Shown: piece after piece, positions 10,127 through 30,477 of the stretch | Layout of the letters: each line of letters starts with the position of its first letter | Position numbering within the stretch: position 1 is the first letter of the stretch | Source: Loigolactobacillus iwatensis | GTDB lineage: Bacteria; Bacillota; Bacilli; Lactobacillales; Lactobacillaceae | Assembly (NCBI RefSeq): GCF_003950295.1 | Contig: NZ_RHNP01000026.1 | Coordinates: forward strand, 1-42,352 | DNA: 42,352 bases | Direction of reading: 5' to 3' | Position numbers and translations under genes: made by a program | Notes under the pieces: generated by a model | Databases searched by the model: none | What the model was told of the DNA's origin: nothing | The model's input: only the letters and a program-made list of their open reading frames with translations

Positions 10127-10177
10127 GGTAAAGGTGAATTTATGAAAACAAATGAAAGCGGAGAGAGGGACTTATAA

Positions 10178-28773: not shown

Positions 28774-29142
28774 ATGAGAATTTCATTGAATCAGCTCGCC
28801 GATTTAAAGGAAATCATTCAAAAGGATGATCAGACACGGCCGGCAACCTTGTTGTTTTTCATCAGTAATAAAAAGCTAAATCAGCCAACCACTCTGGGAT
28901 TTGGTGCGACTGCGGATACCAGTAAAGTAAGTGAGCAACAGTATGTGGTTGAATATCGGAGCAAATATTTAAGGGCAACCCTACAGGGCCAAACTAGTTT
29001 GAAAACATTTACGAGTTCAAGAAAGGCCCTACTCGCTTTACGTGATTTTGAATTTAGTCAAACGTTTACCTTACAGCAGGCACTTAATTCAAATGAAGGT
29101 GACCTGGTTTTATTGGATGATGCTACTAAACAAGAATTATGA
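28774..29142 (+). CDS. Hypothetical protein, 122 aa
   Basis: I do not recognise it. Soluble, no signal or membrane segment. The N-terminal helix MRISLNQLADLKEIIQKDD is followed by a beta-rich region (TLLFFISNKK, YVVEYRSKYLRATL), then a helix (SSRKALLALRDFEF) and an acidic end. The ribosome site is weak (AAAGAAGCG). It follows the second nucleoside hydrolase by 34 bp without a terminator, so it may be the last gene of that operon. No link of function can be drawn. Confidence 0.65.
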   Translation: MRISLNQLADLKEIIQKDDQTRPATLLFFISNKKLNQPTTLGFGATADTSKVSEQQYVVEYRSKYLRATLQGQTSLKTFTSSRKALLALRDFEFSQTFTLQQALNSNEGDLVLLDDATKQEL

Positions 29143-29184
29143 GATTTTGGTAATTTTTAAATGGCATTAAAATTATAAAATAGC

Positions 29185-29213
29185 TAGAAATATCTAATTG
29201 TTTGTGTTATATT
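29185..29213 (+). promoter_or_regulatory. Promoter of candidate small RNA 1
   Basis: -35 TAGAAA (29185-29190, weak), a 17-bp spacer and -10 TATATT (29208-29213), with a TG one base upstream, an extended -10. Start of transcription would be near 29220. Confidence 0.5.
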
Positions 29214-29219
29214 ATAGTA

Positions 29220-29346
29220 ACCATTTATTTATCTTCCTCTAACATAACCTGTTTGAGTATGATATTGATGTAAAAGATAACTTCCTCAGCTTTTACATCA
29301 AACTTCCGAAAAAGAACCTGTGAATTTTGTGCAGGTTCTTTTTTGT
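29220..29346 (+). ncRNA. Candidate small RNA 1 with CU-rich loop
   Basis: About 125 nt without an open frame behind a ribosome site. A 12-bp perfect stem (29265-29276 with 29290-29301) shows a 13-nt loop containing CTTCCTC, and the same heptamer occurs unpaired at 29233-29239. A third CTTCC lies between the stem and the terminator. The element ends at a strong terminator (29311-29346). Pyrimidine-rich loops of this kind pair with Shine-Dalgarno sequences in csRNAs and RsaE-like RNAs. No homologue is claimed. It could also be a leader attenuator. Confidence 0.55.
29311..29346 (+). terminator. Terminator of small RNA 1
   Basis: AAAGAACCTG (29311-29320) and CAGGTTCTTT (29332-29341) form a 10-bp stem with an 11-nt loop, followed by TTTTG. 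Confidence 0.88.
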
Positions 29347-29359
29347 TATTTAAAATAGA

Positions 29360-29388
29360 TTGACAACGCTTACAGCGTATGCTAATAT
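29360..29388 (+). promoter_or_regulatory. Promoter of candidate small RNA 2 with cre operator
   Basis: -35 TTGACA (29360-29365, perfect), a 17-bp spacer and -10 TAATAT (29383-29388), one of the best promoters in the window. TGACAACGCTTACA at 29361-29374 matches the cre consensus TGWAANCGNTNWCA at all but position 4 and covers the -35 box. ACGCT-TAC-AGCGT (29366-29378) also forms a perfect inverted repeat in the spacer. CcpA bound here should block transcription. Confidence 0.65.
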
Positions 29389-29394
29389 TTCTTC

Positions 29395-29478
29395 GTAAGG
29401 TATTTCATCATTACCTTTAAATCAATTCTCTTTCTCTCTTATGCCAACCACTGTTCCGCAGACAGTGGTTCTTTTTTT
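29395..29478 (+). ncRNA. Candidate CcpA-controlled small RNA 2
   Basis: About 85 nt between a near-perfect promoter and a terminator. A 6-bp hairpin (29397-29402 with 29412-29417) is followed by an unpaired CU tract (TTCTCTTTCTCTCTT, 29426-29440), then the terminator stem. No ribosome site precedes its only ATG (29441), so it is probably non-coding. The architecture, two stem-loops flanking a pyrimidine tract under a cre site, resembles the CcpA-repressed RNA RsaI of Staphylococcus. That is an analogy of layout, not of sequence. Confidence 0.6.
29446..29478 (+). terminator. Terminator of small RNA 2
   Basis: AACCACTGT (29446-29454) and ACAGTGGTT (29462-29470) form a perfect 9-bp stem followed by CTTTTTTT. 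Confidence 0.9.
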
Positions 29479-29505
29479 GCCTAATAAAGTAAAAACCCGT
29501 ATAAT
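29477..29505 (+). promoter_or_regulatory. Promoter of the 102-aa gene
   Basis: TTGCCT (29477-29482), a 17-bp spacer and a perfect TATAAT (29500-29505). Its -35 overlaps the T-tract of the preceding terminator, and the start of transcription would fall at about 29512, right at the ribosome site. Confidence 0.6.
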
Positions 29506-29527
29506 AAACCGGCAGGAGATGATTTTA

Positions 29528-29836
29528 ATGCAGGTAATCAACTTAGATTTGATACAAGAAATTATGCAAAATGACGGTAGTACGTACCTTGATATCTCCA
29601 ATATGACTATGAATGGGCGTGCAGAATTGGCGGCTATTCGAGGCTATATCAAAGAAGTACGAATTATTCAACTAAACATTCCGCACTCAACAGCATTAGC
29701 AACTTATGAAAAGTACGTAAATGAACATTTTACAATACCGCCCGAAAAATTCACTGAATGGATACCGTGGTTACCTAATGATGAGGCTAGCAAGGCGGCC
29801 TACCAGACAGTTATCAGCGAGAATCATGTTGGCTAG
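29528..29836 (+). CDS. Hypothetical protein, 102 aa
   Basis: Family not recognised. Soluble, with a helical start (INLDLIQEIMQND), a Met/Asn-rich stretch (YLDISNMTMNGRAELAAIRG), and the beta-strand-like KEVRIIQLNIPHS before a helix and the Trp-containing FTEWIPWLPNDEA. I place the start at the ATG at 29528, 9 nt after AGGAG (29514-29518). An in-frame ATG at 29441 lies in the terminator of small RNA 2 and has no ribosome site. The mRNA leader would be very short (about 16 nt). A repeat element follows the stop. Confidence 0.65.
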   Translation: MQVINLDLIQEIMQNDGSTYLDISNMTMNGRAELAAIRGYIKEVRIIQLNIPHSTALATYEKYVNEHFTIPPEKFTEWIPWLPNDEASKAAYQTVISENHVG

Positions 29837-30203: not shown

Positions 30204-30275
30204 TGTCCAGTAGTTCAGCGGTAGAATACCGGTCTGTTAAACCGTAGGTCGTTGGTTCGAACCCAACCTGGACAG
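30204..30275 (+). tRNA. tRNA-Asn (GTT), copy 1
   Basis: 72 nt cloverleaf. Acceptor TGTCCAG/CTGGACA plus discriminator G, D-arm GTTC-AGCGGTA-GAAT, anticodon loop CTGTTAA with GTT at 34-36, T-arm GTTGG-TTCGAAC-CCAAC. CCA is not encoded. The anticodon stem CCGGT/ACCGT has a C27-U43 mismatch. It reads AAC and AAU codons. Confidence 0.95.
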
Positions 30276-30405: not shown

Positions 30406-30477
30406 TGTCCAGTAGTTCAGCGGTAGAATACCGGTCTGTTAAACCGTAGGTCGTTGGTTCGAACCCAACCTGGACAG
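30406..30477 (+). tRNA. tRNA-Asn (GTT), copy 2
   Basis: Identical over 72 nt to the copy at 30204, including the C27-U43 mismatch and the absence of an encoded CCA. It lies 130 bp downstream in the same direction and is followed by a terminator. Confidence 0.95.

Follow-up and report, generated by a model that had tools for sequence, protein, structure and literature searches.

The window analysed here, a 42,352-nt stretch of Loigolactobacillus iwatensis DNA, contains at 29360-29478 a compact unit with its own promoter and terminator and without a conserved protein, as expected of a CcpA-repressed base-pairing small RNA (Table 1). The promoter noted in an earlier sequence-only reading was confirmed by direct reading and by a promoter scan; it matches the consensus at 10 of 12 bases and has a TG ahead of the -10 box. 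The cre overlapping its -35 box had been claimed as a 13/14 match but is better than that, and is the sole exact match to the operator consensus within the window. One-mismatch cre matches were found 7 times in the window against 7.35 expected, so the box by itself is no proof. The short hairpin, unpaired CU tract and terminator described in that reading are likewise all present. The RNA 29396-29478, whose ends are deduced from the -10 box and the terminator, folds at -17.6 kcal/mol, whereas shuffled versions average -6.6 (z -5.3; 0/200 match it), and the CU tract stays unpaired in this predicted fold. The claim that the unit lacks coding potential needs a qualification, as a mechanical 131-aa frame does open at 29441. 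This frame merely continues in frame into the downstream gene, which has its own start at 29528.

Table 1. Positions of the small-RNA unit and associated features in the window.
Feature	Position	Strand	Basis or remark
ccpA ribosome site, earlier proposed target	10161..10170	+	judged not a conserved target
Small-RNA promoter TTGACA-N17-TAATAT	29360..29388	+	direct reading and promoter scan; -35 TTGACA 29360-29365, -10 TAATAT 29383-29388, 17-nt spacer
cre (CcpA operator) TGTAAGCGTTGTCA, overlapping -35 box	29361..29374	-	14/14 against TGWAANCGNTNNCA
Predicted transcript, ~80 nt	29396..29478	+	start from -10 box, end from terminator
5' hairpin AAGGTA...TACCTT, 6 bp	29397..29417	+	fold
Unpaired conserved stretch ATCAATTCTCTTTCTCTCTTATGCC, proposed pairing region	29421..29445	+	includes CU tract CAATTCTCTTTCTCTCTT, 29423-29440
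Intrinsic terminator and T run	29446..29477	+	scan; 10-bp helix 29446-29470, T run next; nine helix pairs changed on both sides
Uncharacterised 102-aa protein gene	29528..29836	+	linked to the RNA; own promoter-like box 29477-29505

The small RNA is single copy in its own genome. A BLAST search with the region 29140-29530 matched 20 of 60 genomes, its own included, one of which (G021) matched just the terminator immediately upstream of the RNA. The tract was not used as bait in this search, and all 19 RNA loci found, again including its own, carry an identical 18-nt tract. Allowing one mismatch, 197 of the 397 Lactobacillaceae genomes contain the tract, and they represent 18 of 40 genera. Two matches (G323 and G353) were judged from their surroundings to be chance, leaving 195 genomes, a tract-based count in which many loci, such as nine of genus g19, were not viewed singly. 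A scan of named contigs placed the tract in at least 14 named genera among the matches listed, which also include chance matches in unrelated bacteria. These genera are Lactiplanti-, Levi-, Lenti-, Ligi-, Limosi-, Liquori-, Lati-, Secundi-, Pauci-, Furfuri- and Loigolactobacillus, Pediococcus, Dellaglioa and Periweissella. The RNA, at 82.9% identity, is also present in two Latilactobacillus curvatus records filed as plasmids (NZ_CP016468.1 and CP117684.1; 220 and 592 kb), which may be chromosome pieces.

The sequence-only reading had looked to a covariance search in relatives, and to conservation of the cre box and CU tract there, to decide its case; each came out in its favour. A covariance model of 36 homologues, run with stricter filter settings, matched 32 of 395 genomes of the order, every one in Lactobacillaceae. 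Across the aligned homologues 87.4% of cells are paired and the covariation score is 0.352, compared with 0.190 for shuffled and at most 0.171 for slid alignments. In the terminator, 9/9 counted helix pairs vary on both sides. The 5' hairpin is paired in 94.0% of cells and gives little or no covariation because its sequence is nearly invariant. Rfam 15 returned no match for the window (gathering score) or for five homologous loci (E up to 1). This comparative evidence marks the unit as a conserved gene for a small RNA, whose family is new but of a known kind.

To assess CcpA control we reduced 168 tract loci to 140 distinct ones, of which 120 passed a crude hairpin filter. The 20 failures comprised 17 chance matches and three exceptions (L. 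selangorensis, L102 and L156). Among those passing, two were chance (L058 and L116) and one lay too close to a contig end (L103), leaving 117 homologues. Their best -35/-10 pairs match at 9-11 of 12 bases. Within 75 nt every one of the 117 carries a cre, which is exact in 88 homologues and has a single mismatch in the other 29. Mononucleotide shuffles gave an exact cre in 0.02% and a one-mismatch cre in 2.5%, a control that is generous to the cre claim in view of the kinship among the homologues and the resemblance of TTGACA itself to a portion of cre. The operator lies on the -35 box in 94 homologues (88 by script and six Lactiplantibacillus loci assigned by eye), on the -10 box in 18 and just upstream of the promoter in five. 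The 18 are Limosilactobacillus-type and Pediococcus genomes, in which cre begins 13 nt past the start of the -35 box. A cre on either box should repress, and 112/117 are so placed. In 23/117 homologues the operator has been relocated yet retained, and no other observation argues as strongly for selection on CcpA binding. The CcpA control proposed at the outset is supported by this distribution, and the small RNA is very probably both conserved and CcpA-repressed.

The five homologues with an upstream cre are all from Loigolactobacillus (L005-L009). Here cre begins 22 or 23 nt before the -35 box, with one mismatch in the wider scan and two in a narrower one, and its central CG is altered in four of the five. 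In B. subtilis, cre upstream of a promoter is linked with activation (PMC8414754). The sign of control is thus possibly different in these five, where by analogy CcpA may activate the RNA. Variant loci were also observed among the filter failures. In L. selangorensis (L017/L071) a cre-like -35 region is present in a promoter placed considerably further upstream, so that the 5' part is longer, and in L. saerimneri (L102) a cre-like -35 region precedes a 5' hairpin of other sequence. In Weissella minor (L156) the tract lies between a hairpin and a terminator and no cre was recognisable on viewing the locus; this RNA is possibly a form free of CcpA control.

We then considered what the tract might pair with. 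The ribosome site of ccpA itself had been proposed, as the basis of a feedback loop, together with the caution that pairing by so low-complexity a tract could be chance. The 10-bp pairing with bases 29429-29438 exists, with an energy of -16.3 kcal/mol in this genome against -14.7 in its sister G007, and is the strongest among 38 window starts (of 43 listed ORFs, five overlapping ones were removed and a few starts were altered by script). The caution was justified, as 147/1000 shuffled tracts pair equally well. The site is absent from two further Loigolactobacillus genomes (-7.9 and -8.5 kcal/mol). Pairing ranged from -6.7 to -14.8 kcal/mol in 13 other RNA-bearing genomes and from -4.4 to -14.6 in 13 genomes without the RNA, some of whose starts are misplaced. 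Despite its top rank in the window, we rejected ccpA on the shuffles and on the weak sites in relatives. It is probably not a target, and the feedback loop is unlikely.

Genome-wide, nine ribosome sites of L. iwatensis fit GAGAGRRRGR-N(1-12)-ATG, compared with four for the reversed pattern. The best of these nine, among which ccpA ranked seventh, belongs to an N-acetylglucosamine PTS IIBC gene (G000:C1:58630; TIGR01998, NCBIfam, above cut-off), pairing at -24.0 kcal/mol with 2/1000 shuffled tracts as strong. Chosen in this way, the permease gene is the best candidate target seen in its own genome. The nagE leader gives no information on conservation because it is nearly identical in G000 and G007. 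Directly after the best full-length complement of the tract in L. iwatensis (L179) there is no good gene start.

In Levilactobacillus, nagB-like sites pair at -17.9 to -21.0 kcal/mol in 5/5 loci, a strength equalled by 4 to 27 of 500 shuffles of the tract; the family assignment of this gene falls just under cut-off (TIGR00502, 236.4 vs 236.9). Outside that genus nagB sites are mostly weak. Shuffling was applied to 12 of the 13 other loci and ten were unremarkable, exceeding 5%, so nagB was rejected as a target there; the exceptions, at or below 5%, are L018 (10/500) and L142 (25/500). Further candidates assigned by NCBIfam above cut-off are araD and gpmA in Levilactobacillus, gpmA in a Pediococcus genome and purB in a Dellaglioa genome. 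A beta-glucoside PTS in Lactiplantibacillus is a fragment scoring under cut-off. Putative argJ (Lactiplanti- and Lentilactobacillus) and ammonium transporter (Furfurilactobacillus) genes were named by reading their sequences. Many further site matches fall at non-sugar genes, and only a minority of candidate target genes have a cre ahead of them. An ABC exporter whose site matched in four genera was rejected because this stretch lies partly within codons of the preceding gene and also occurs in genomes without the RNA (15 vs 9 genomes, Mann-Whitney p 0.12). The ribosome sites of the gene downstream of the RNA, ordinary Shine-Dalgarno sequences by eye, and those of glmM, unremarkable at -7.5 to -14.7 kcal/mol, were also discarded. 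The list of targets is only suggested.

Counting sites across genomes gave a broader measure. Distinct sites fitting TAAGAGAGRRRG-N(1-14)-ATG number 26 across 30 RNA-bearing genomes and 1 across 15 that lack the RNA, compared with 8 and 1 for the reversed pattern. A permuted purine control, which can still pair with the tract over about 6 bp, gave 38 and 18 (Fisher p 0.004 for 26/1 against 38/18). Counted by genus, sites occur in 10/15 with the RNA and 1/9 without (p 0.013). A wider set, tallied by hand and containing the same 30 and 15 genomes, gave 190 rows in 195 RNA genomes and 49 in 202 without the RNA (reversed pattern, 45 and 25). At least one match is present in 105 and 44 genomes, respectively. 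The odds ratio in this set is 2.2 (p 0.011), falling to 1.6 (p 0.16) when Levilactobacillus is removed, and both enrichment tests take no account of kinship or genome size. Enrichment of tract-complementary ribosome sites is thus moderate, and is non-significant without Levilactobacillus. The recurrence of a site within a genus is weak evidence since it is seen in RNA-less genera too, and the pattern searches showed no gene serving as target across most genera.

These results bear on a different role for the tract in a CcpA-controlled RNA, in which it would mainly bind a protein or sponge another RNA instead of meeting many ribosome sites. Such a role would fit the modest target enrichment and a tract conservation far exceeding that of any target found. 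Set against this, RNA-bearing genomes have tract-complementary ribosome sites more often, and the analysis identified neither a protein nor an RNA as partner. We regard it as unlikely, though it is the most serious of the alternatives. Pairing with ribosome sites is the likely mechanism.

The surroundings of the RNA were considered next. The 102-aa gene lies 3' of the RNA on the same strand in 124/127 members of its cluster, an association that could make the unit a leader or attenuator of this gene with no separate RNA. An intrinsic terminator and a separate TATAAT-like box nevertheless stand between the two. Other genes intervene in some Lactiplantibacillus, and in L004/L128 the 102-aa gene is elsewhere and inverted. 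The gene was found in 73/395 genomes of the order, every one Lactobacillaceae, and some of these retain it without the RNA. The RNA is thus linked to the gene but is not its leader, because the gene has its own TATAAT-like box and is kept without the RNA; we hold the leader reading to be very improbable. The 102-aa protein has a confident predicted fold (best model pLDDT 94; two of five models poor), with no PDB match at E <= 0.001, no Pfam match below 0.01, none shared among members, and no NCBIfam match.

Genes upstream of the RNA vary. By our own reading of their sequences they appear to be glmM and glmS in Limosilactobacillus, glmM in Ligilactobacillus, nagB-like genes in Periweissella and Paucilactobacillus, and a teichoic-acid exporter in others. 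In the window a second small-RNA-like unit adjoins upstream (29213-29345). Its parts are a promoter-like TAGAAA-17-TATATT, the sequence ATCTTCCTCTAACA, a long hairpin that pairs perfectly below its loop ATAACTTCCTCAG, and a terminator (29307-29345). Positions 29219-29345 fold at -36.7 kcal/mol (z -6.9). A 5' stretch AACCATTTATTTAT(Y)TTCCTCTAACA lies upstream of the RNA in 6/8 Loigolactobacillus loci viewed, the window included. Two tRNA genes of equal Rfam score lie about 200 bp apart in the window, at 30204-30275 and 30406-30477.

A small peptide translated from the AUG 3' of the tract could be proposed from the near invariance of that AUG and from the mechanical frame opening there. The frame, however, crosses the covarying terminator, whose sequence changes freely, the AUG is missing in several Lentilactobacillus homologues, and the CU tract stands upstream in place of a purine-rich ribosome site, making a peptide extremely improbable. 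A chance arrangement without function has next to no probability: in the window taken alone, matches resembling a promoter or a terminator and cre matches with one mismatch come close to chance, but conservation, covariation and cre relocation over many genera count against it, and the conservation has already refuted it.

Taken together, our results point with fair confidence to an old, trans-acting, base-pairing small RNA of Lactobacillaceae under catabolite control. On good sugar, CcpA and its co-repressor bound to cre at the -35 box would exclude RNA polymerase, as the position and conservation of the operator suggest. When sugar is low the promoter would open, producing an RNA of about 80 nt with the 5' hairpin, the exposed invariant CU tract and the terminator; the fold and the terminator covariation are shown, and the transcript itself is predicted. 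Pairing of the tract with purine-rich ribosome sites (UAAGAGAGRRRG type) would then block translation. Its targets would be a small, lineage-varying set with carbon and amino-sugar genes prominent, such as the N-acetylglucosamine PTS in L. iwatensis and nagB-like genes, araD and gpmA in Levilactobacillus. A bolder version is possible but doubtful: the RNA, found across much of the family, would be a translational arm of catabolite control, in which one invariant tract recruits lineage-specific sugar and amino-sugar genes through ribosome-site mutation and cre has moved among three promoter positions, possibly with reversed sign in part of Loigolactobacillus.

Lactobacilli are major food and gut bacteria. 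A conserved unit joining an operator to a pairing strip, which is predicted to cover ribosome landing sites of sugar-use genes, offers a test, in laboratory species that are harmless, of how catabolite control is shared between translation and transcription. How a repressor site evolves can also be followed here in a clean natural experiment, since cre has shifted among three promoter positions while the remainder of the gene was retained. Our literature search of titles and abstract openings found no description of this small RNA and no CcpA-controlled trans-acting small RNA in lactobacilli.

Unpaired pyrimidine-rich motifs aimed at ribosome sites are known from the csRNAs of Streptococcus, LhrC of Listeria and RsaE/RoxS. 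Their motifs are C-rich (UCCC type) and their control differs; the tract described here alternates C and U, and its presumed switch is CcpA. 6S RNA, which mimics promoters, is another point of comparison. In lactic acid bacteria, cre overlaps the -35 box of 6S RNA in about a third of them, and the level of 6S RNA, 210 nt long in one case, rises about threefold when ccpA is mutated in Lactococcus (PMC8414754). The two RNAs are alike in being non-coding with a cre overlapping the -35 box. They differ in length, 6S RNA being much longer than the roughly 80 nt of the RNA described here, which also carries a CU tract. The Rfam 6S models gave no match in the window (gathering score) or at five homologous loci (E up to 1).

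The closest parallel is RsaI of Staphylococcus, whose targets are glcU_2, fn3K and icaR. In S. aureus, RsaI is described as a 111-nt RNA that is repressed by CcpA when glucose is plentiful and pairs with the ribosome sites of glcU_2 and fn3K, a sugar-uptake gene being among its targets (PMC9266662). RsaI, here compared by description, belongs to another bacterial family and has different targets from those predicted here. Our RNA matched no Rfam 15 family, and by this indirect route no sequence kinship was found. The likeness in layout and logic stands: similar size, repression by CcpA (very probable here) and, as predicted for our RNA, pairing with ribosome sites and a sugar-uptake gene as target.
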